In this document: piece after piece, positions 1 to 10,818 of the stretch
How the letters are laid out: each line of letters starts with the position of its first letter
How positions within the stretch are numbered: position 1 is the first letter of the stretch
Assembly: GCF_000275845.1 (NCBI RefSeq)
Contig: NW_006766909.1
Location: forward strand, 1-10,818
Direction of reading: 5' to 3'
Length of the DNA: 10,818 bases
From: Dichomitus squalens LYAD-421 SS1
Lineage: Eukaryota > Basidiomycota > Agaricomycetes > Polyporales > Polyporaceae
Made by a program: the position numbers and the translations under genes
Notes under the pieces: model-generated
What the model was told of the DNA's origin: nothing
Databases searched by the model: none
Seen by the model: only the letters and a program-made list of their open reading frames with translations

Positions 1-25
1 GCAAGCAAGCACGCACAGACCCGGG

Positions 26-351
26 TGTCCCCGACAAATTGGTAAGTACACAATCTGTGTGATGCACCTTATAAGAGATCCTGTACAGAGGACTCTCAGT
101 CTAGTGGGAAGATCACTGACTGTATTAGGACTATACCTGTACAGAGGACTCTAAGAACCATATGAGTACAGTATAGTATGGGAATAGAAGATGAACATAC
201 CTCAGTCTAGTGGGAAGATCACTGACTGAGGAAAGGAAGGAGCGAAGCCAGCACTGTCTACAGCGCTGGCAGGTGGCAGTGCTTGTCTACTATAACAGGA
301 AGGTAAGGTAATCTAATCTAATCTGACACGTCACCTGACCGCATTCCGACA
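26..351 (-). repeat. 3' LTR of Ty1/copia element
   Basis: On the minus strand this begins TGTCGGAATG at 351, directly after a purine-rich stretch (GAGTGGGAG) that fits a polypurine tract. It ends GGGGACA at 26, so the ends have the TG...CA form with a short TGTC/GACA inverted match. The length of 326 bp is normal for a copia LTR. A TATAAG box candidate lies at 73-68 on the minus strand. The pol reading frame runs into the LTR and stops at 320-318. Positions 1-25 would then be host DNA flanking the retrotransposon, with CCGGG (21-25) as the candidate 5-bp target duplication. The inner boundary is well supported by the pol end. The outer boundary is inferred from terminal base pattern only, since the partner LTR is outside the window. 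Confidence 0.7.
80..228. repeat. Internal direct repeats in the LTR
   Basis: Two families of exact direct repeats overlap inside the LTR. A 28-bp unit starting CTCAGTCTAGTGGG occurs at 95-122 and 201-228. A 17-bp unit, CCTGTACAGAGGACTCT, occurs at 80-96 and 136-152. The repeats lie close to the TATAAG candidate on the minus strand, so they may be enhancer-like or simple slippage duplications. Function is inference. Confidence 0.85.
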
Positions 352-482
352 CTCCCACTCAAGCGCTGCCTAAGACCCATAGCCCGCATAAACCTCCAGT
401 GTTTCTCTCGAGGTAAGGCCTTTGTAAAAATGTCCGCTACCATTTCCTCCGTAGGTACCCATTGTATTTCAGCTTCTCCTGT
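318..482 (-). pseudogene. Copia Pol C-terminus (RNase H tail), severed piece
   Basis: Read on the minus strand from 482, this encodes the last part of a Ty1/copia polyprotein: TGEAEIQWVPTEEMVADIFT and then KALPREKHWRFMRAMGL, ending at a TAG at 320-318 inside the LTR. The VPTEEMVADIFTKALP block is the classic end of the copia RNase H domain. It is separated from the rest of pol (9968-10818) by the 9.5-kb DNA transposon. When the two parts are joined through one copy of the shared CTCCTGT, the frame is continuous, running from FHFLRDNLVA into TGEAEIQWV. The piece itself has no damage, so the copia gene was probably intact when it was hit. Confidence 0.92.
476..482. repeat. Target site duplication, left copy (CTCCTGT)
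   Basis: CTCCTGT here is repeated in direct orientation at 9968-9974, exactly outside the two inverted-repeat ends. Extending leftward gives an 8/9 match (TTCTCCTGT versus TGCTCCTGT), so an original 9-bp duplication with one mutation is possible. The restored copia reading frame supports this placement independently of the base match. Confidence 0.88.
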
Positions 483-922
483 CAGGGATATCAGTCAAAT
501 AAATTTTTCTGTCCTTATAGTTATAGTAAAACCCGAATTATTTGGCCCAAATGTTATAGTGGCCCCTCCATATATTTGAGAGGGTTGGAGAGATGCCCCT
601 CCCAGATATTCGAAGCAAACCCCAAATATTTGGGATGCATATAGGGAGTGAGGGCTCCCCCTCCCCAAATATTTGCCAAATATTTACTGTGAGCGCTACA
701 TAGGGAGGATCAGATTCTGCGTGCGCTGTGGGTCCCCTTGTGATTACTCCAAATATTTGTCAAATAATTCACCCAGATATTCTCCATTCAGTACGGCGGT
801 GTGCGCAGCAACGTGATGCTCATTCTGGCTAATCTATTACATGTTCTCGACTACATGTACAGACTACGTCTACGACTAGCGGAGGACAAGAGAGCATGTT
901 CGTGACAGAACAACCGCCCTCC
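483..922 (+). repeat. Left terminal inverted repeat (about 440 bp)
   Basis: This pairs with the reverse complement of 9541-9967. Shared blocks in the same order include ATAAATTTTTC, TATAGTTATAGTAAAACCC, TTTGGCCCAAATGTTATAG, CCAGATATT, CCCCAAATATTT, GCGGTGTGCGC and CAGAACAACCGCCCTCC, which ends both repeats. The palindromic motif CAAATATTTG or close variants recur many times, which is the look of subterminal transposase-binding sites. Small indels make the left copy about 13 bp longer than the right. The similarity stops abruptly at 922, shortly before the first cargo ORF at 948. Confidence 0.93.
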
Positions 923-947
923 AAATTTCCAAGTGAGAAACAATAGA

Positions 948-1340
948 ATGGCGAGTTACGCTGAACGTTTGCAGGCATCTGCGCGTGGGCAGGATCCTGA
1001 GACACCTTGGGTGCGCCAGCTCTGCGATGACATGCTCGTCGCCGCTGTCGACACCAAGCGGGTGCTGTTGTTGCTGTAGCGCGTGAACACCGAGGTCGAC
1101 GTGCCCGCGCTCGACATGGAGCTGCGCCACGTGCTGGACGCCATCGAACTCGCGCTCGACACCAGTGGCCGCCCGCTCCGGGTGCTAAACGGCGAGTTCC
1201 CGCGCTCGGATCTCTTGTCACCGGTCTTGCCGTTGGGTCCGCCATGGCGTCGTTCCGGGCTTCCGCGAGCTTGCGACGACCGGAACGGAGAGTCGGAGGA
1301 AGGACCCCATGCGCCGCTCCCGTTCAGACTGGATTCGTGA
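948..1340 (+). pseudogene. Unknown protein fragment with one in-frame stop
   Basis: An ATG at 948, 26 bp inside the left inverted repeat, opens a frame of about 130 codons ending at 1340. It is interrupted by a single TAG at 1077-1079. The protein starts MASYAERLQASARG and continues through a helical, acidic part (DMELRHVLDAIELALDTSGR). From about 1242 another frame (MASFRASASLRR, then LLAIADICLPPELALEGL) also looks protein-like, so a frameshift or intron near 1230 is possible. I do not recognise the family. It could be captured host coding DNA or a remnant of the element's own gene, since it lies directly inside the terminal repeat. Codon choice is GC-rich like the other cargo. Confidence 0.4.
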
Positions 1341-1378
1341 CGTTGCTTGCGATCGCGGACATCTGCTTGCCACCCGAA

Positions 1379-2580
1379 CTAGCGCTTGAGGGGCTTGTGC
1401 AAGCGTCTCGAGGGTAATGTCGTGCGCCGACGACGGACTCGTCGGGGATGTCGCTGTCGTGCCCTTGCCTTGCGAGCGCCACGCTTGTGTCGCTTATGAG
1501 TGGAGGTTGAGCGGCAGCCTGACTCGCCCTCCACCTCCGCTTTGGCATCGTCATCGTGCTGGTCGTGATGGTCATCAAGGAAGTCCATAGCGCTCCCTTA
1601 CTCAGTCTCGCCGTCGGCAACAGGCGGGAGTGTGATCAGACTCTCATGCTTGTGCTCGAACGCAGGACCCGAGGATCGAGACTGTGAGAGGTTGCGAGAG
1701 GTACGACGGGATGTACCCTCCCCAATGACGACCGAGTTCCGAACAGATAGACGGCAGGAGTGAGGAATGGAAGAAAGGCGATGGCCCTGCACAGAGGCGA
1801 TAGAGATGTTGCAAGTATGTCCACGGATCGAAGGCCGGCCCACCAAACGCACCGGAGGTACACTTAGAATCGTCCTTGTGTCTGTCGAGGAGACAGAAGT
1901 CATTGTTGGCCAAAAACTCTGCAACGGGGAGGGTCACACCGGAGAAACGCTGCTGAGGCTGAGGGGAGATGGGCTCAGTGACGTCTGAGCTGGAGGACGA
2001 GAGGGAGCGGGCAGAGCGGATCGCGCCTGGGGCGCATGGCCGGACTGGAGGACGTGACCAGATTCGGCGGTGTCCTCAATGCGCCTGTAAGCATTTTACC
2101 ACAGAGCGACACACAAGGAGGATGAGGACATACCAGTAGTGATGGAGGTATAGAACTTGGCGGGCTTGGGGAGTTTCCAACCCTCCGTGGGTTGGAAGAC
2201 GTCTTGCGCCGGGTGCCTTCTTGGTCAGGACGATACACGTCCAAGCTGTTCTTCCCGCTCCTTTGTCGCGTGGGCCTCGAGAAGCAGATGTTTTCTGGCC
2301 CTTGAAGAGACCACAGCAGGCGTAGACAGCAAAGCGGGAGAGGCAGCCGAGCCCGACGTTGCGAGCCACCTACGGCTACAGAGATATAGATTACTCACCG
2401 TCTGCTGCGGTTGCTCCACCGGTGTCTCATCCTTGCCTCTCCTCCCGCCGCCGTCTCAGCTTCCTCACTCCTGCGTCGTCCGGGCAGCCAGGGGATGGTG
2501 GAGGTCGTGTGCAAGGTCGAGGGCAAGACGGAAGTTGAAGGATGGTGGGGCGATGGGGTAGGGATGGTGGTGGATAGCAT
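1379..2580 (-). pseudogene. Unknown minus-strand multi-exon gene fragment
   Basis: A minus-strand ATG at 2580 (MLSTTIPTPSPHHPSTS) follows a pyrimidine-rich promoter-like tract. Protein-like pieces continue in shifting frames: KDETPVEQPQQT; RARKHLLLEAHATKEREEQL; DVFQPTEGWKLPKPAKFYTS (about 2200-2130). A candidate intron follows (GTATGT donor about 2127, TTACAG acceptor about 2080). Then come a Ser-rich stretch, FLANNDFCLLDRHKDDSKC and GPAFDPWTYLQHLYRL (about 1920-1800). The last piece is MDFLDDHHDQHDDDAK followed by an Arg/Lys-rich tail ending at 1379. A TAA (1600-1598) lies just before that last piece in the same frame. I do not recognise the family. The shared signs of capture are a retained candidate intron, a retained upstream region, and several frameshifts. 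A degenerate transposase cannot be excluded but no catalytic pattern is visible. Confidence 0.4.
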
Positions 2581-2760
2581 TGTGGGGGATGCTGTGTGAG
2601 GGGAGGTGGTAGAGAGAGGGCTGGGCTCTGTTCTAGGAGGCCGACGGAGGGAAGAAGGGCAACGGTGAGGAAGGAAGAGGGCGCGTGGAGAGAAGCGAGA
2701 GATAGAGAAGAGGGAGAAATGCTGGCGGGGCCAGGCGGGCGCCAAGTTGTCAGGTACATA
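2581..2760 (-). promoter_or_regulatory. Pyrimidine-rich promoter/5' UTR-like tract
   Basis: Read on the minus strand this stretch is dominated by C and T (CTCTTCTCTATCTCTCGCTT, CCCTCTCTCTACCACC), as is common just upstream of start codons in filamentous fungi. It ends at the ATG at 2580 of the unknown minus-strand gene. This suggests the captured segment included the gene's 5' flank. No clear TATA box was seen. Confidence 0.4.
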
Positions 2761-2809
2761 CGGCTCGGCGGTCGCCTCCCCACCCCCAGCGCTTATGAGT
2801 CGTGAATAG

Positions 2810-2831
2810 GGTACGTACCTAAGTACTTAGG
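2810..2831. repeat. Two overlapping perfect palindromes
   Basis: GGTACGTACC (2810-2819) and CCTAAGTACTTAGG (2818-2831) are each their own reverse complement and overlap by two bases. They lie in the gap between the minus-strand fragment's upstream tract and the next cargo segment, so they may mark a join between captured pieces or a dimeric binding site. Purpose unknown. Confidence 0.8.
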
Positions 2832-2923
2832 CCAGTGCCATGTCCTGCACAGCCGCAAACGAATACGTTGCTAGGCAATATCTACAACGAACCAGAGCCT
2901 AACAGTCTACAGAGCTTGGGCAG

Positions 2924-3625
2924 TTGAGAGGGAGATCGAACATGGGGCGACGTGTTCGGCACAATTTCAGTCCTGTCTGTGTCCCTCCTCGCTCGCTGCT
3001 CTCGCCTGCGAAAGAGGAGAGAGGCTCTCACACCAGCTGGATTGGCCAACCCCGTGACCCCCGCAGAAATACATCCAACAGCCTTTCTCCCATCAATCCC
3101 ATCTACCTTCCCAGCATTTGCATGACAACCTACGATGGCCAGCGCCAGATGGTTAATCAAGTAGCCCAGGGTGCACCTCAACGACGTACCTTCCGCATAT
3201 TCTTGGGTTATCAAGGTACGCCTGCATCTCCGTACGCTCCCGGGTCTCATGCAGAACCTGATGAGACGGCCATGAGCAAGCAGCTGGAGCTGGAGCTGGC
3301 GCTGACGGTCTTGAGCGCAAACATACCGCAGAGGTGACGTGTGCGACCTGGGCCATGAGCGGCCCTACGCCCCAGCCTTCCGCCTATCCTATATGAAACA
3401 CGAGAAGTGTGGTCGGATTCAGTGCAAAATGCAAGATCTCCTTTGTATGGGAAGATACGAATCTCAAGGAGGCCCCGGCGGACAACCATCTGCATGATAA
3501 GCGGCTGCTGGAATGGAGCCTCCCGTAGCACCAGTGTCTCCACGGAGTCCGTCATGGTGTGTATGGATGTTGCAGTGTTATACGTGAGCCATAAACTGTG
3601 CAAACGGCCCAACGCAAGCTGTTAG
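2924..3625 (+). other. Unclassified cargo stretch, possible degraded coding DNA
   Basis: A frame at 2924-3337 encodes 137 residues. Its later part looks more protein-like than its start: MTTYDGQRQMVNQVAQGAPQ (from 3121), TFRIFLGYQ, then MSKQLELELALTVLSANIPQ (3272-3331). The sequence at 3214-3252 (GTACGC to CATGCAG) could be a short intron. In the same frame as the last block, a few bases further on, GDVCDLGHERPYAPAFRLSY can be read after a one-base shift. Positions 3360-3625 should hold the N-terminal lobe of the kinase that follows, but I cannot find a glycine loop or the VAIK lysine there. No family was recognised, and this may include promoter and 5' coding DNA of the kinase gene. Confidence 0.3.
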
Positions 3626-3790
3626 TACGTGCTGAGCAAGGAGAAGATCGCGCGGACGAAGCAGGAGTCGTAGACACATCCGTTTTAAATCATAAACATA
3701 TGGTACACGTTCCAAGACACTGCGAACCTGAATATGGTCATGGACTTTGTCCCTGGCGGCGAGCTGTTCATGTTGTTACGAAGGTACAAT
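3626..3790 (+). pseudogene. PKA-type AGC kinase fragment, N-lobe part
   Basis: After a TTAG acceptor (3622-3625) the frame reads YVLSKEKIARTKQ, the alpha-B/C approach of cAMP-dependent protein kinase catalytic subunits. After a TAG and a frameshift, HPF, a stop, and then IINIWYTFQDTANLNMVMDF follow, with VPGGELFMLLRRYN at the end. This corresponds to the strands up to the hinge and alpha-D of PKA (compare family pattern [27 protein letters not shown]). The exon ends in phase 0 at 3790, followed by a GTGAG donor. The glycine loop and catalytic VAIK lysine are not found. The rest of the kinase resumes at 6610 in matching phase, so this is one gene split by about 2.8 kb of foreign sequence. Confidence 0.82.
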
Positions 3791-3829
3791 GTGAGTTCGT
3801 CCTGTACTCATAGCATACCGTGGGTGCTC

Positions 3830-4189
3830 ATGGGCCCCGAATACCGCCGTATCTTGAACGAGCCGAGAACCAACACGGTAGGCCTGCTCATCTTGCGAGG
3901 ACAGAGATGGCTGGATAGACAGCACACATCTCCCTCTCTCCTCGTGGACACCTTTCATTCCATCGCCTGCCCACATAACTCCCTCCCTCGCCCCCGTCCC
4001 CTCTACTTCCCCGTCCACGGCCGCCCCCAGCTGTCGCTCGCCTTCTCGCATTGCCCGTCTCACAATAAACACTTGTCTATATAGGGCCATCCTCCGTTTG
4101 CTCTCCACGACGCTCTCAGACAACACACACCTCGCCGCCGTTCAACTCAACAAAAGAGTTATTGAATAGGCGCATACACAAGGCCAGTC
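3830..4189 (+). promoter_or_regulatory. Captured promoter and 5' UTR of the KRE6-like gene
   Basis: A strongly C/T-rich tract (about 3925-4040) is followed by a TATATA box at 4078-4083 and then an A/C-rich leader up to the ATG at 4190. This order (CT tract, TATA, leader of about 100 nt) is a normal basidiomycete promoter arrangement. It shows the copy began upstream of the gene. The left edge of this captured segment lies somewhere between 3800 and 3925 and cannot be placed exactly. Confidence 0.55.
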
Positions 4190-6606
4190 ATGTACCGCAG
4201 ACGCGACTCCCAGAATGGTCGCACCGCCTACTCCTCCGCGGACACGTATCGCTCTCACAACTCGAACCCGCCTCCAACCGCAGCGCCAAACGACTCGAGT
4301 GAGGACGAGTTCCAGCTTCAGCGCAATATGTCCACCCCAATTGCCAACAACTTCGCGTGTCGTAAGTCCACGGACAGCACGCGCAATAACGCTCCTTTGG
4401 TTCCTCCCCGGCCCTTCTTCCCCGAGGGCTGGGCGCGCCAGTCTTGGAGCGGATCCTTCGAAAGCACGTCGTTGACTGGCGAGCAGAGCGATCCTGATAG
4501 CGCGCCTCCCGCCGCAAGTCATCCGCAGACGCGACCACGCGACCTTCTCAACGCGGTGCAGCTGCCCGCTCCCTTCGTGCCTTCACCAGCCCTACCCAGC
4601 CAGCGCAGCCAGTCTCTTCCAGTAACCCTCGTCCTCGCACCAGGAACCATTGCAGACGCTCGTCCGTGGCCAGCGAGTACGCCCCCGAAGCCGAGAGCAA
4701 GGATGGAACGGTTGCTGCCTCCCCGACACTCTCGCCTGTGACTGCCAACACGCCCACATCCGCGACTCCCTTCATGCCGAAACCGTTCGACACCGCGAGG
4801 AACTCGTTCTACGGCACGATGCCCGCCGGTGCTGCTCCATCTCTTGTCGCAGGACCGCGTCCACCGCCGTCCTCCTTCCCCTTTCAATCGCACCCAGGCA
4901 ACCCAGACCCCGGCCTTCCCCTCCCGGGCATGGGTGGACGTGCTTCGATTGAGAGCATCCGTGCTCGGGAGAGCACATATCCTCATGGCCACCATCACTC
5001 TCCAGCACGGGCACGGTCTTGCAGGTGCCGGCATTGCCGGGCGGCACGAGCAGCAGCGATCTCGCATGGGATCTTGGGCGCCCGTACGCGCCGTTCATGG
5101 AAATAAGTATGGTGCCGGCGTCCCCAGCCGCGAGGGCAGCGCTACCCCTACCAGCCCGATGGGCAGCCGTATTTACATGAACAGCGCAGCGGCGGCAATG
5201 GCTGGCAGCAGCCAAGCTCTGAACCAGGATTTCTGTAAGTTAGTTTCTGAGCGTGCGACATTCCCAGAGGCGAGATGACTGACTGGTCTCTTTTATTCAT
5301 CCGACTCTTCGCACAGGCACCAACGCCACGCACATCCCGAGCAGTGAGCACACAATCGAGCCCAGCCATCAGCATGCATGCGCCGTTCTTTGGCCATCGT
5401 CGCTCCCGACATCTTCGGTCCGGTCGCCGCCGTCGTACTACACATATCCGCTTGGGCAGTCGAACTCCTCGCTCTCCGCGCATTCCCGCAAGTCGCGGCG
5501 GTCCATGCCCTCCTTAAGGCTCTCGCACAAGCTCGAGAAGGAGGACAAGCCATGGCTCAGCCAGCGCGACTGGCGCGACCGCGCCTCGTGGTGGCTCATG
5601 TTCTTCATGCTGTTTTTCGGGATTGGAGGCGCCGCGGTCCTCTGCTTCTTCGGGTGGCAGGACGTGAAGATGCTCATGGACTCGGACTTGTGCCAGGTCC
5701 TGGACAAGAACTTCGACACACTCGACCTGCAGAATAGATGGACGCGCGACGTCGAGCTTGGTGGGTTCGGCAACGGGGAGTTTGAGATGATGACGGCCTC
5801 GGACTCGAACCTGTTCGTGCAGAATGGCGAGCTGTACATCTTGCCGACGCTCACATCGGACGCCATTGGGAAGGCTGCTATACTAGACGGCGGCTCGTTC
5901 AATCTCGGTGACGACTGCACGAGCAACAACAAGGTCAGACTTTTCACGCTGGTTCCTACCTTCTCGTTTTGGCTCAGGCGTGTGATGCTAAACTCTTCTG
6001 TTGTTTGTGTCTTCACACACTTTGTGGTGTCATTTAAGACTGCCTGTTCCGTCAAGTCGAACAACCAAACGGGCGCGACCATCCAGCCAGTCCAGTACGC
6101 ACGGATCAGCACGATTAACTCTGCCACCATCGCGTTCGGCAAGGTGGAGGTTCGCGCGAAGTTGCCTCAGGGTGACTAGCTCTAGCCCACGATCTGGATG
6201 CTACCCAAAGACAACAAGTATGGCGCATGGCCGCTCAGCGGTGAGATCGATGTGCGTATATTCTCTCTTCCCCACACTGTATCACCGAGAACTGACTTTG
6301 AGCGGATCTTCTAGATTATGGAATCACTCGGCAATGGCATCTCGTACCCCGCCCTGGGCTCTAACTTTGTGCGCTCCACGCTCAACTAAGGGTGCTCGCG
6401 AGCGTGCAGACGTCCATCTTCGGCTGGTGGTCGCAGAAGCGCTCGTCGTACACGGACGACTTCCACGTATACGCGCTCGAGTGAACGCCAGATTGGATGC
6501 GCTTCTACGTCGACTCGCGCATGGAGGCGATGATGAACTTGAAGATCACGGGCAAGGGGGGCAAGGACTTCTTCAAGCGAGGCCACTACCCTGCCACGGC
6601 CGCTGA
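4190..6606 (+). pseudogene. KRE6/SKN1-like beta-glucan synthesis protein, truncated
   Basis: KRE6/SKN1 proteins are type II membrane proteins with a GH16-like lumenal domain needed for beta-1,6-glucan in fungal cell walls. The copy starts MYRRRDSQNGRTAYSS and has a long Ser/Pro-rich cytosolic region with frame changes near 4617, 5000 and 5100. An intron (5235-5316) follows, then KEDKPWLSQRDWRDRASWW, one membrane segment (MFFMLFFGIGGAAVLCFF) and the SKN1 signature (WTRDVELGGFGNGEFEMMT, GELYILPTLTSDAIG). Introns at 5934-6038 and 6252-6314 are in phase 0. The GH16 catalytic motif is intact across the latter (GEID then IMES). Damage: TAG at 6177 and 6183 in place of the two Trp of WLWP, TAA/frameshift at 6387, TGA at 6482. 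The frame is last recognisable at DFFKRGHYPATA, so the C-terminal part of the domain is missing. It lies inside the kinase intron. Confidence 0.92.
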
Positions 6607-6609
6607 CAG

Positions 6610-7195
6610 CGCTTCCCAGACCCCGTAGCAAAACTCTACGCCGCAAATGTCGCGCTCGCGCTCAACTATCTCCACTGAAAGGGCATCATCTACTGAGAAT
6701 TGAAGCCTGAATACATGGATCAAGATCGCAGATTTCGGCTTCGCCAAGCACTGCACGATGACCGTCTGGACGCTGCGTGGTACCTCAGACTACCTTGCAC
6801 CCGAGGTGAGAGCCAGCTCCCCTGACAACATCCTTGCCCGTCTCCGCGATCTTCGCTGACTCCAGCTGCAAGGCAAATGATGTCAAGCTGGCATTACACA
6901 ATGCTACAGGTACAACTAGGCACTATCTGATGTACGTAGCTTACTGGCAACGTGTGGTACAATAACAGTGTGGATTGGTACGCCCTTGGGGTGCTCATCT
7001 TCAAGATGCTCTCCGGGCTGCCGCTGTTCCACGAGCCAGACATCTCGCCCGTCGTGTCGTGCGAGAAGATCGCGTGGGGCCTGGCGTGCATAATGGCCGG
7101 CGTTCAACGCAAACACTACCGATCTGAGCTAAAGGAGTATCAAGTGGTGGGCGCTGTGTAATTAGGCGGAGAGTGTAGCCGGGGACCAGGACCAG
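6610..7195 (+). pseudogene. PKA-type kinase fragment, C-lobe part
   Basis: After an ACAG acceptor (6606-6609) the frame gives RFPDPVAKLYAANVALALNY, typical PKA alpha-E. The catalytic loop YRDLKPEN has become Y-stop-ELKPEY (TGA 6694-6696; Asp to Glu, Asn to Tyr), with another TGA at 6676. After a frameshift, WIKIADFGFAKH keeps the DFG motif (6731-6739), then VWTLRGTSDYLAPE is the activation segment. An intron starts at 6806. Then NSVDWYALGVLIFKMLSGLP and CEKI (to about 7072) match alpha-F/G. Further on FNANTTDL is readable in another frame, then similarity fades. No C-terminal tail was found. It continues the piece at 3626-3790 with nothing missing at the split. In life the enzyme phosphorylates Ser/Thr under cAMP control; this copy cannot be active. 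Confidence 0.88.
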
Positions 7196-7244
7196 CAAAG
7201 CACCAAGGACAAACATATTCTCCTGTCGAGCTCAAGTGAGCAGG

Positions 7245-7287
7245 TTAGACGCTTGACGCGCCTGCCACAGGCGCGTCAAGCGTCTAA
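7245..7287. repeat. Perfect 20-bp hairpin (3-nt loop)
   Basis: The arm at 7245-7264 (TTAGACGCTTG...CGCCTG) is exactly complementary to 7268-7287, with CCA as loop. It is GC-rich and has no poly-T tract, so it is not a bacterial-type terminator. It sits between the kinase and Yth1 fragments, close to where the two captured pieces must join. Confidence 0.95.
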
Positions 7288-7339
7288 ATTCTGCACTCTG
7301 CCACGTCTCCCTCTTGCGCAGGCCTTCATCTGTCTCCTT

Positions 7340-7939
7340 CCGCTCGTCTCTGTGTCTCTGCCTATCCGCCATGCACCCGGCACCCGTCTCCAGACTCCAC
7401 CGGTTGAATTCTCTGTCCGTCTACTGCACTGTTTTCTCAGACACGCCGCGTGCTCTGTGCAGAACTCCAACCCGCCAAATCATCTGCTCATGCAGCCTCG
7501 TGAACGCGAATGCTTGGCGACCGTCTGTTAGCACTGGCTATGTGGGCTATCTAAGAAGGGCGACACATGTGAGTCTTGCAAGAGTACAACCTCTGCTGCA
7601 TGCCCAAGTGCTGATGGTATGCCAAGTATGGCTACTGATCTGCTGGTGACGAGTGTTTTTACACGTATCCTGAGGGTGGAGTGTCCAGATTACAACAGAG
7701 GCTTCTGCAAGCTTGGTACGTATTTCTCTTTTCCACCTTCATGGACATGCTGTAATCCTTCTCATGACGAATGCTCACTTCTATTATTCTGGTGTGATAT
7801 CTTGTACAGGCTCGAACTGTCCCCGCAAACACATACGCAGGGGAGCATGCCAACTATACCTCACCAACTTCTGCCCTCTGGGACCCGACTGCCCCCACAG
7901 CCAGTATGCGCATCTGCCAGCAGATCTCACCCATCCTTG
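7340..7939 (+). pseudogene. Yth1/CPSF30-like CCCH zinc-finger fragment
   Basis: Yth1/CPSF30 binds the AAUAAA signal in the mRNA cleavage and polyadenylation complex through five CCCH fingers. The copy shows traces of finger one (IRHAP, about 7367-7381), then PRERECLATVC with a TAG at 7529-7531 and HWLCGLSKKGDTCE (finger two, one Cys changed to Ser). Next is a frameshifted finger three (KYGY, stop, SAGDECFYTYPEGG). Best preserved is finger four, VECPDYNRGFCKLG, then a 94-bp intron (7716-7809), then SNCPRKHIRRGACQLYL and TNFCPLGPDCPHSQ. Finger five has lost the normal position of its final His. The intron splits the Gly codon exactly as a spliced gene would. Several frameshifts make it non-functional. 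The fragment ends near 7939, where the transcription factor piece begins. Confidence 0.87.
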
Positions 7940-7952
7940 ACCAGGTCGGCTA

Positions 7953-9415
7953 GGCTACCGGGCTCGACCTCACTGCAATATCTGCGGCTGTGTCGAGCTA
8001 GCAAGGCTCATTGTCATCGGCGGCGCAGAGCACGGGGAGAGCTGTGCCAGACGTCATGCAGTCATACCTGCACCGAATCCACGAAGGGCAGGCCATCGGC
8101 AACCGATCCGATAGCCGCAGCACGAGCAGCCATGGCTCGGACAACGACCTTGCCGTGAAGATCGAAGACAACATCTTGAACGCGCTCGGCCAGCTCGCCC
8201 TCGACGAGCACGGGCACCCGACAGGGAACTCGTCCACAATGTCGTCAATTCAGCAACTGAAGAAGGCGACAACGTCCCCGCTGCACTGTGTCAAACCGAT
8301 AGAGGAGGACCCGCTCGCTCCTGGGCCAAGCGTCAACAAGTTATCTTTCCCCACAAGCGTGTACTTCGGGAAGGTTAGGGCCCTACCGAGACTGGAGGGA
8401 GTTGAGTACCCCGAGCGGGGCCTCGTAGACAAGTTCGTACGTGCCATTTGTAGCACCTATCGGTGGAGAGAGGGCTGATTATATGCAGGTCGGTGCGTAC
8501 TTCGCCCGTTTCCACTTCCTCATGCCCATATTGGATAACCCGGACTTTATGCGCCAGTATAGGTACCTCTTGGATCGCCCAGTTTGTCCGTTCGCATACT
8601 CCCTTCGTAGCACTAGTGTGCGCTGTCTTTGCAGTAGTGTCTCGCTTCGTGGACGATCTGCGGCTGAAGACGACCGATCACCTCAAGGAAGCCGGTATGG
8701 GCATGGTTTACCATGAACGGTATGTTCCCCGAATTCCCGCGGGCCATTCGCGGCATTTAGACGCGAACTAACTTCTCGCCCATCTCAATATAGTGCGCTT
8801 ATCTTGCACTACATCAGTGCCGCCTCGATGCAGGTCGAGCACGTTCAATGCTTCTTGCTGATGTCTTCGTTCCTGTGTCCCATCAACGGCTTATCGCAAG
8901 CGTGGCTTTGAGTCGGGCAAGCTGTCCGCGCAGCACAAGACATCAGTCTTCCCGTGAGTAGCCATCCACACTCTCGACCGTACCCGTGCTCACACTCGCC
9001 GTAACCGCACTGAGACGCCTTCTCATCTCTCTGGTTGAGAATGAGACGTGTTGTAAGATCTGGTAGGGCGTGTACACCCTGGACAGGATGCCTGCCCTGG
9101 CGCTGGGCTGACCCCTCGCCATTGAAGATGCTGATTGCGACGTGGACATCCCCGTCAAGCTCGACAATCAACTGCACCCGCAACACTTTGCAGGCACCTT
9201 GCTCCCCCAGGGCAGATCTCGCTCATGCAGGGATCCATCGAGCTCATCTTGCTTTACAGGATCGCTGGACGAGTCCTCCACGAGGTATACGCACTTGACA
9301 AGGACCACCTCGAGATGGACAAACGGGCTGAGCTGCAGCGGTCCATCGAGACGTTCAACTGACACCTCACCAAGTGGTGGGAAGACCTCCCTGCGGTCTT
9401 CAAGTCGAACTGGAT
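7953..9415 (+). pseudogene. Fungal-specific transcription factor fragment (regulatory domain)
   Basis: This is the middle homology region of a Zn2Cys6-type fungal transcription factor (Fungal_trans domain). It starts in a linker (TGLDLTAISAAVSS, stop, then VPDVMQSYLHRIHEGQAIG) and continues DLAVKIEDNILNALGQLALD and PGPSVNKLSFPTSVYFGKVR. Introns at 8437-8488 and 8720-8793 have consensus ends. The domain core follows: AYFARFHFLMPILDNPDFMR, FVALVCAVFAVVSRFVDD (after a frameshift near 8590), MGMVYHER/ALILHYISAAS, VQCFLLMSSFLCPINGLSQA, GVYTLDRMPALALG, IEDADCDVDIPVKLD, and IELILLYRIAGRVLHEVYAL. Stops: TGA 8909, TAG 9064, TGA 9109, TGA 9360; another frameshift lies near 9210. Neither the Cys6 DNA-binding cluster nor the C-terminal activation region is present. 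It is truncated at about 9415, shortly before the right inverted repeat. Confidence 0.85.
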
Positions 9416-9540
9416 GTGGCCAGCAAAGTCCGCTGGTGGTGCGCAGAGCGGACCTTGTCGCCCAGATGAGTTTTGTCCCATCTAGTGTCGCTTGCGTTGA
9501 GGATGCCCTGCCACAATATGGCGCACGGCACACTGCGTCT
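9416..9540. other. Unassigned spacer inside right TIR
   Basis: These 125 bp lie between the last readable transcription factor residues (WWEDLPAVFKSN) and the start of the right inverted repeat. They may be further decayed factor sequence. No reading frame, repeat or motif was recognised. Confidence 0.4.
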
Positions 9541-9967
9541 GGAGGGCGGTTGTTCTGTGATGAACGCACTGTCTTGTCTTCCGCCGGCCATAGTTGTAGT
9601 CTGTAGAAGTAGTCAAAGACATGTAACAGATAAGCTGGAATGAGCATTCACGTCACCGCGCACACCGCCATACCAAATGGAAAATATTTGAGTGAATTAT
9701 CACACTACAACTCTAAATTTTTGGAGGAATCACGACAGCGCACCTACTTAATTAGCGCTCACGCTAAATATTTACTGAATATTTGGTGCCCTCCTCCGCT
9801 TGCCCCCTCCACACATCCTAAATATTTGGGGTTCGCCTCCAATATCTGGGAGGGATGTCCCCCAACCCTCTCAAATATTTGGAGGGGCCACTATAACATT
9901 TGGGCCAAATAATTTGGGTTTTACTATAACTATAGGGACGGAAAAATTTATCTAGTGTGTACTGGTG
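9541..9967 (-). repeat. Right terminal inverted repeat (about 427 bp)
   Basis: Reverse complement of the left repeat, beginning inside at GGAGGGCGGTTGTTCTG (complement of the last block of the left repeat) and ending at ...ACTGGTG before the target duplication. It contains several AAATATTTG-type motifs (for example around 9683, 9766, 9778, 9819 and 9874). The strongest match to the left copy is at 9868-9950, which pairs with the left block starting at about 500. Differences are scattered substitutions and a few indels, so the two ends have diverged or never were identical. Confidence 0.93.
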
Positions 9968-9974
9968 CTCCTGT
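9968..9974. repeat. Target site duplication, right copy (CTCCTGT)
   Basis: Direct copy of 476-482, just outside the right terminus. On the minus strand it encodes part of the copia codons ACA GGA, which occur on both sides of the insertion. Confidence 0.88.
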
Positions 9975-10818
9975 AGCCACCAGATTGTCGCGCAAGAAAT
10001 GGAACTTTCGCTGAATGTGCATTGTTCGAGCGCGGAACTGCGCTTCCTTGGACAGGATGATGGCAGCACGATTGTCGCAGCGCAGTTCACTGGGTTTCTG
10101 CTGTGGATGACCGAGCTCACTGAAGAATGTGCGAAGCCAGGCTAGGTGTTGGCCAGCGTTGCTGAGACCAATGTACTCCGACTCAGTTGATGAGAGGGCT
10201 ACCAGAGATTGTCGCTTGCTTGACCATCCAATCGCACCTCGGTTGCTGATGAAGACAAACCCAGAGGTTGAGCGAGAAGTGTCATGGTCACCGCACCAGT
10301 CTGCGTCCGAATATCCGTGAAAGTCCATGTCGCCGCTAACATCTGATCCGTCAAACCGAAGTTCGCAATCGGCCGTGCCCTTGAGGTAGCGCATGACCCG
10401 CTTTGCCATCTCCCAGTGATGGAGCTTTGGATTTGCTGAGTAACGACCTAGTACTCCAACAACATAGGAGAGGTCAGGGCGAGTGCCTTGTGCGGCGTAC
10501 ATGAAGGAGCCAACAACGCTTGCATAGGACACTTCATGACCTTCAATGGTATAGGTATGGTACGTCCGGTTGTCATCAGGATCGTCAGAGGAGGGCTTGG
10601 CACTTGTAGCCATGGGCGTTGAGACAGGTTTGCAATCTGCCATACCGTACCGCTTTAGAACGGTGTTGATGTACTGCTGCTGGGAGAGACTAATTGTACG
10701 GCGAACCCGGTCACGACGAACTTCAATACCAAGGATGTAGGATACTGGTCCCAGGTCTCGCATCTTGAACTGGGCCGCAAGCATCGCTTTGACCTCGTCC
10801 ATAAGATTTCGGGACGTA
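9968..10818 (-). pseudogene. Copia Pol: reverse transcriptase end and RNase H, interrupted
   Basis: The minus strand is open from the window edge (YVPKSYMDEVKAMLA at 10818) to the insertion. It first gives the end of the copia reverse transcriptase (FKMRDLGPVSYILGIEV, LSQQQYINTVLKRYGM), then RNase H with its acidic residues in SDADWCGD, SSTESEYIGL and RCDNRAAI. It finishes TMHIQRKFHFLRDNLVATG before running into the transposon, where it stops at TAA within the first bases. About 280 codons have no internal stop. The remaining 55 codons are at 482-318. GAG, protease, integrase and the 5' LTR must lie beyond the right edge. RNase H degrades the RNA strand of the reverse-transcription hybrid; this copy is broken by the insertion. 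Confidence 0.95.

Follow-up and report, generated by a model that had tools for sequence, protein, structure and literature searches.

A packed cut-and-paste DNA transposon carrying pieces of ten unlinked host loci in the polypore Dichomitus squalens

The window analyzed here is the first 10,818 nucleotides of contig NW_006766909.1 of Dichomitus squalens LYAD-421 SS1 (C27:1-10818; the contig begins at window base 1). It contains a 9,485-bp element at positions 483-9967 that we identify with high confidence as a non-autonomous packed cut-and-paste DNA transposon, given its near-invariant ends, a 7-bp target-site duplication, empty insertion sites, sister copies and cargo taken at the DNA level from ten unlinked loci. 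An earlier note, made from the sequence alone, had placed a 9.5-kb transposon at these positions, and the conserved ends and the duplication show that placement to be exact. All counts of donors, sisters and ends given below are based on one genome of one strain, searched as a 40.3-Mb assembly of 116 contigs.

Element ends, insertion site and donor loci

Both coordinates of the element were set by conserved ends. Left ends begin CAGGGATATCAGT and right ends begin CACCAGTACACACT, with ATAAATTT situated a few bases inward of the tip in both types. When 24-nt patterns were searched across the whole genome with up to 3 mismatches allowed, the left type was found 11 times (10 with 0 mismatches, one with 1) and the right type 10 times, in every case with 0 mismatches; the reversed pattern, used as a control under the same tolerance, gave 0 matches genome-wide. 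All 21 ends start with CA, as in 5'-CA..TG-3' termini. The earlier note described inverted repeats of about 430 bp, and these exist (499-923 against 9951-9540, 75% over 435 columns), but they do not form a classical terminal inverted repeat (TIR). Over the outermost ~13-16 bp neither end is an inverted copy of the other, and the inverted repeat starts at about base 16 inward. The end structure is one of unlike CA..TG tips backed by long subterminal inverted repeats.

An exact 7-bp target-site duplication, CTCCTGT, flanks the element at 476-482 and 9968-9974. Exact 7-bp duplications are present in all three copies with both ends assembled, namely the window copy, a 5,139-bp copy on C4 (ATCGGGA) and a 7,243-bp copy on C40 (AAAACGA). 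When unpaired left ends were matched with unpaired right ends in 56 combinations, one gave an exact 7-bp match (C112/C57, AGACACG), where 0.003 would be expected, and the C24/C41 pairing agreed at 6 of 7 positions.

On either side of the element lies one half of a Copia pol gene, the right half recognized by RVT_2 in Pfam and the left by eye. Four uninterrupted Copia copies were recovered at 100% identity (two on C77, one on C6 and one on C83, the last over 117 nt) with a 118-nt query in which the flanks meet around a single copy of the duplication. The insertion of the window copy is therefore precise and, because its flank shows no difference from other Copia copies across the junction stretch, probably recent. 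Since the flanks are identical to the empty sites while cargo and donors differ by 6-17%, the window copy most likely moved after the cargo had decayed. The boundary features are as follows, with strand given where assigned.

1..482, minus strand: left flank, Copia pol 3' end (by eye, to base 482) with retrotransposon DNA downstream of it; empty-site search (421-482)
476..482: target-site duplication, left copy, CTCCTGT; comparison of flanks
483..922, plus strand: left end (CAGGGATATCAGT...) and long subterminal inverted repeat, with AAATATTT motifs seen by eye; repeat, BLAST and end-pattern searches
9540..9967, minus strand: right end (CACCAGTACACACT... read inward) and subterminal inverted repeat; repeat, BLAST and end-pattern searches
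9968..9974: target-site duplication, right copy, CTCCTGT; comparison of flanks
9968..10818, minus strand: right flank, Copia pol with RVT_2, remainder of the interrupted retrotransposon; Pfam RVT_2 and empty-site search

Searching the interior against the genome identified ten donor loci on eight contigs (C1, C3, C8, C15, C16, C33, C53 and C60). No donor locus has a best E-value above 2.7e-19, which excludes chance. Counting two less certain pieces, donor DNA covers 8,023 of the 8,617 interior bases (93%), and the largest gaps without a donor are 141, 140 and 97 bp. The two donor loci on C1 are separated by ~300 kb, and those on C3 by ~190 kb. The cargo pieces, in order, are given below.

923..1953: piece of C3:304401-305930, whose donor is a 637-aa open reading frame (ORF; coding direction minus) without a Pfam hit; genome search, refined alignment
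1950..2077: piece of C16:524479-524610 (328-aa ORF, no Pfam hit); genome search, CTGC common to both sides of the junction
2105..2350: piece of C15:262834-263115, ribosomal protein L6e gene; genome search, Pfam Ribosomal_L6e
2492..3101: piece of C3:493852-494458, 5' part of a homeodomain gene and upstream DNA; genome search, Pfam Homeodomain
3119..3595: piece of C53:191086-191567, unnamed locus; genome search
3629..3831, plus strand: PKA catalytic-subunit gene, first part, donor C60:101805-102037; genome search, donor Pfam Pkinase
3829..6601, plus strand: piece of a KRE6/SKN1-like GH16 gene, donor C33:232183-229400, introns kept, nested in PKA; genome search, donor alignment
6606..6870, plus strand: PKA gene, second part, donor C60:102046-102330; genome search
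6866..6930, plus strand: 65-bp piece of C1:2199735-2199799, 94%, nested in PKA; genome search, junction alignment
6931..7127, plus strand: PKA gene, third part, donor C60:102327-102525; genome search
7245..7340: palindrome at 7245-7287 plus 7268-7340 (match to C3:154019-154089, less certain donor); repeat and genome searches
7423..7906, plus strand: piece of a YTH1/CPSF30 gene, donor C1:1899846-1900365, intron kept; genome search, donor Pfam zf-CCCH
7910..9409, plus strand: piece of a Zn2Cys6 fungal-specific transcription factor gene, donor C8:485978-484439; genome search, donor Pfam Fungal_trans and Zn_clus
9412..9497: short match (81%) to C36:258768-258853, a less certain donor; genome search, region common to siblings on C4 and C32

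The earlier note had counted four broken genes and two or three fragments without a name, and had proposed aligning each fragment to its parent elsewhere in the genome. That alignment found the donors; the four genes are present, but the sources are more numerous, at ten loci. The PKA, Yth1/CPSF30 and transcription factor copies are upheld by donor domains, and the first two also by matches in the Protein Data Bank, where the best match of the PKA donor is 'cAMP-dependent protein kinase type 1' (E 2.5e-36) and the YTH1 donor matches CPSF4 (E 1.4e-28) and YTH1 (E 2.4e-25). For the donor on C33, the GH16 match in Pfam is marginal, at 22.0 and 21.2 bits where the cut-off is 22, and several of the 43 relatives found carry the names GH16 or concanavalin A-like glucanase. 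These relatives support GH16, and we take the gene to be KRE6/SKN1-like.

Compared with its donor, the C3:304401-305930 piece has two deletions, near 1332 and 1374, corresponding to donor bases 304819-304986 (168 bp) and 305030-305318 (289 bp). Spliced introns were considered for these gaps and rejected, as both lie inside the 637-aa open frame and the sequence is kept in the sibling on C113; they are deletions in the window copy. By eye, an ORF beside this donor resembles the beginning of a protein kinase, with no Pfam match, and the 65-bp C1 piece adjoins an ORF with a sub-cut-off INO80_Ies4 match. The C53 donor may not be a gene. The donor locus (C53:189586-193067) lies close to repeated DNA found also on C7 and C32, and for that reason may itself be mobile DNA.

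The mobilizing transposase

We somewhat favor a KDZ transposase of the Kyakuja kind, supplied in trans, as the mover of the family, in the sense that the family works like Kyakuja rather than that it is Kyakuja. The assignment is made because the 7-bp duplication and CA..TG ends match Agaricomycotina Kyakuja as described, with 7-bp duplications, CA..TG termini whose tips are not inverted repeats and no TIRs (PMC12730594). In the same study, Kyakuja was the sole TET-bearing transposon type found in Polyporales (PMC12730594).

Several results weigh against this assignment. Kyakuja as described carries a TET/JBP gene, and the families in print have no inverted repeats, whereas the ends of the present family bear subterminal repeats of ~430 bp and its cargo consists of gene fragments (PMC12730594). 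Genome searches for KDZ and Plavaka found no transposase tied to the family. The 7 KDZ matches fall on five contigs without a family end, and the sole KDZ locus read, on C110, has no DNA similarity to the family. The nearest of 27 Plavaka matches is ~30 kb from an end. Within the element, a Pfam scan of six interior ORFs found no transposase domain, the rest of the ORFs being unscanned.

A superfamily other than Kyakuja is only a little less probable, be it a hAT7-like one with 7-bp duplications, a Mutator-like one whose duplication is short, or a group not yet described. PMC12730594 describes hAT7 families with 7-bp duplications in rust fungi, a length shared with the window family; the long subterminal inverted repeats recall Mutator-like elements (MULEs), and no KDZ gene is linked to the family ends. 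On the other side, KDZ genes do exist in this genome, and CA..TG without inverted tips combined with a 7-bp duplication is the description of Agaricomycotina Kyakuja, the only TET-bearing type reported from Polyporales (PMC12730594). Plavaka was also considered as the mover and led nowhere, with duplications of 2-3 bp in print and matches ~30 kb or more from the ends. The KDZ matches at C20:82630, C10:946774, C93:71828, C110:5365 and C14:521034 belong to other elements.

At 7 of the 21 ends, the contig breaks off inside the element within 500 bp, and the sequences of C30, C41 and C57 at such ends agree at 98% across 457-478 bp, as expected if near-identical autonomous copies defeat assembly. 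The C30 copy, of which the right 3.5 kb is assembled (C30:349652-353115), is probably autonomous. It contains a multi-exon gene with, as we read it, one in-frame stop and, by eye, an AT-hook-like KKRGRPK near the C-terminus. Pfam gave one match, below the cut-off, on four C30 ORFs. A protein search over the best 7,995 candidates found at least two relatives, one in Dichomitus squalens at 69% and one in Ganoderma leucocontextum at 39%. DNA searches for the interior of likely autonomous copies gave nothing beyond the known contigs.

Acquisition and decay of the cargo

The captured copies retain the introns of KRE6 and YTH1, as recognized by eye, and the KRE6 piece aligns to its donor over 2.7 kb with no gap larger than 20 bp; DNA, not mRNA, was therefore the template. 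Capture from mRNA was rejected on the grounds of the kept introns. The PKA piece is split twice, by KRE6 between donor bases 102037 and 102046, and by the 65-bp C1 piece between donor bases 102330 and 102327, where the flanking donor coordinates overlap by 4 bp. Because two pieces are nested inside a third, the simplest reading of the sequence is that KRE6 and the C1 piece entered after PKA was already in the element, and that acquisition was stepwise.

Nine junctions compared with their donors share ~0-5 bases by eye (e.g., CTGC at C3/C16 and CTGCA at PKA/C1), a pattern that would fit template switching or patch repair as the way in which DNA was copied into breaks. A gap-filling or template-switching model with short microhomology at breakpoints has been put forward for animal Pack-TIRs (PMC8277862). 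We consider it fairly probable that the cargo was acquired by break repair. Breaks in resident copies, at excision or replication, would provide the entry points, and unrelated genomic DNA would be copied into the gap during repair and joined at 0-5 bp of microhomology. The enlarged element would keep its ends and be moved in trans by the KDZ/Kyakuja-kind transposase of an autonomous relative, and the cargo, probably passenger DNA, would afterwards decay through stops, frameshifts and CpG transitions.

That decay was examined over 14 segments, with 1332-1374, 2986-3101, 3629-3670 and the two less certain donor pieces left out of the alignments. Ungapped identity to the donor is 83-94%, or 6-17% divergence (Kimura two-parameter distance 0.065-0.20), and 22 of the 26 gaps in the KRE6 alignment are not multiples of three. 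Summed over the aligned segments, C/G-to-T/A changes number 406 against 181 in the reverse direction, and C-to-T or G-to-A changes affect 211 of the 1586 bases within CpG but 195 of the 3055 C/G bases outside it. With the donor taken as ancestral, this excess points to cargo DNA that is methylated and unconstrained. Two considerations tell against the account of repair and decay: the microhomology at the nine junctions was judged by eye and without comparison to chance, and the CpG excess presumes an ancestral donor state, though donors change too.

Joint mobilization of two neighboring elements together with the DNA between them, with no gap repair, is an unlikely route to the same structure. 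PMC8903248 puts this model forward for Pack-CACTA and other plant Pack-TYPE superfamilies. It fits less well here because internal ends were not seen: BLAST at E 1e-4 found none within 923-9539, and the end patterns, with up to 3 mismatches, match the contig only at 483 and 9967. Ten unlinked donor loci and two pieces nested inside a third also speak against it.

Two further explanations are extremely improbable. A decayed host locus that chanced to have flanking repeats could explain the length of some captured pieces (2.8 kb for KRE6, 1.5 kb for the transcription factor), but not donors on eight contigs of the same genome, an exact target duplication with four empty sites, or a core common to sister copies; the earlier note's preference for an element over a run of neighboring genes is borne out. 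An assembly chimera might be suspected from the position of the window at a contig start and from the several family copies that break contigs, but chimeric joins would be near 100% identical, the pieces are 6-17% diverged, and the core junctions recur at other loci.

Comparison with known capturing elements and sister copies

The element resembles Pack-TYPE transposons in its conserved ends with a target duplication, enclosing host-gene fragments with donors elsewhere; in cargo that spread with the element, the C3 and C16 pieces occurring in five copies and the C35 piece in two; and in the lack of its own transposase, the interior being 93% donor DNA with none in the six ORFs scanned. Pack-MULEs likewise keep introns in captured fragments. 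MULEs and Pack-MULEs have target duplications of 8-11 bp, whereas the window family has 7 bp in three of three complete copies. It further departs from plant Pack-MULE and Pack-TYPE elements in its fungal host and in having unlike CA..TG tips instead of MULE ends. Among the first Pack-MULEs described, none was above 7 kb, compared with 9.5 kb here (PMC6431247). Animal Pack-TIRs also hold duplicated host DNA in a TIR transposon (PMC8277862). The present family differs from them in having ten donors in a single element, nested captures and multiple packed copies.

Helitrons make no target duplication and have no inverted repeats, in contrast to the window element, which has both a 7-bp duplication and inverted repeats, with the captured DNA between ends of cut-and-paste type. 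Basidiomycete Helitrons do capture genes (PMC4289320), and PMC10799480 names Helitrons and Pack-MULEs as capturing elements, without giving at that place a fungal case of the multi-gene cut-and-paste kind.

The earlier note had suggested that multi-gene capture by a fungal TIR element would be unusual and might be undescribed. Single-gene capture is in print: histone H3 is known from hAT elements, and an ORF from a Tc1/mariner element of Pyrenophora (PMC3538342), and in Pseudocercospora H3 is reported to have been captured as a transcript (PMC6710886). These ascomycete cases are likewise fungal DNA transposons that carry and spread host-derived DNA, but they involve single genes; the present element is non-autonomous, draws on many loci with introns retained and makes another target duplication. 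Among the matches listed for gene capture and for transposon superfamilies in the open-licence literature, no packed cut-and-paste element with multi-gene cargo was reported from a fungus, and within that scope the multi-gene form looks new.

More tentatively, we propose that a polypore KDZ-type (Kyakuja-like) lineage breeds packed elements, in which damaged copies repeatedly take up DNA of unlinked genes, nested in part, and keep moving. If true, the family would provide the first Pack-type cut-and-paste element with multi-gene cargo in fungi, as well as the first packed KDZ members, and the order of capture could be read from sister copies within one genome. The window element itself extends multi-gene capture by cut-and-paste transposons to a fungus, which suggests that general break repair is the source rather than a plant- or transposase-specific property. 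Because donors with long ORFs remain in the genome and the sisters share only some captures, capture order can be reconstructed and the mode of acquisition tested. For annotation, packed elements carry a warning, as they resemble real gene fragments.

The sibling search proposed in the earlier note, which recovered the 11 left and 10 right ends, revealed sisters whose cargo partly differs. The C3 and C16 pieces are in all five packed copies (C27, C4, C40, C113 and C13), and the C15 piece is in the first four, with C13 covered only short of that point. The homeobox-gene region of C3 is present in the window copy and on C32, which also carries a C53-like stretch from a different part of that locus (191766-191891). 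Other cargo comprises a TPR protein gene from C35 in the C4 and C40 copies, a mitochondrial carrier from C37 in the C40 copy, and DNA matching three places on C68, with a Tocopherol_cycl match below cut-off, on C4 and C32. The PKA, KRE6, 65-bp C1, YTH1 and transcription factor pieces were seen in the window copy only, within genome-wide searches for window-type, C35-type and C37-type cargo that left parts of C32, C13 and C7 unread, so absence from a sister is not proof.

The palindrome segment lies next to the core end in the siblings on C4, C40, C113 and C32, inverted relative to the window copy, and may mark an entry place for new DNA. With an extension of ~50 bp, it is found at C4:1760243-1760350, C40:279952-280049 and C113:17627-17716; the window copy has it in the opposite orientation and 4.7 kb distant.

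Sister loci show further rearrangements. At C32:234375-235204, the right-end region runs in the opposite orientation to that of C4, with its tip pointing inward. The mitochondrial-carrier cargo on C40 is split by a SINE- or MITE-like (short interspersed or miniature inverted-repeat element) dispersed repeat of ~250 bp (C40:277342-277594; 16 matching places), with a 3-bp overlap in donor coordinates. Two tiny family shards lie 7 kb apart on C7 (1098247-1098290 and 1091170-1091204), near duplicated C7 stretches; one has a perfect right tip, and the other, a 35-bp shard without a tip, is additional to the counted ends.

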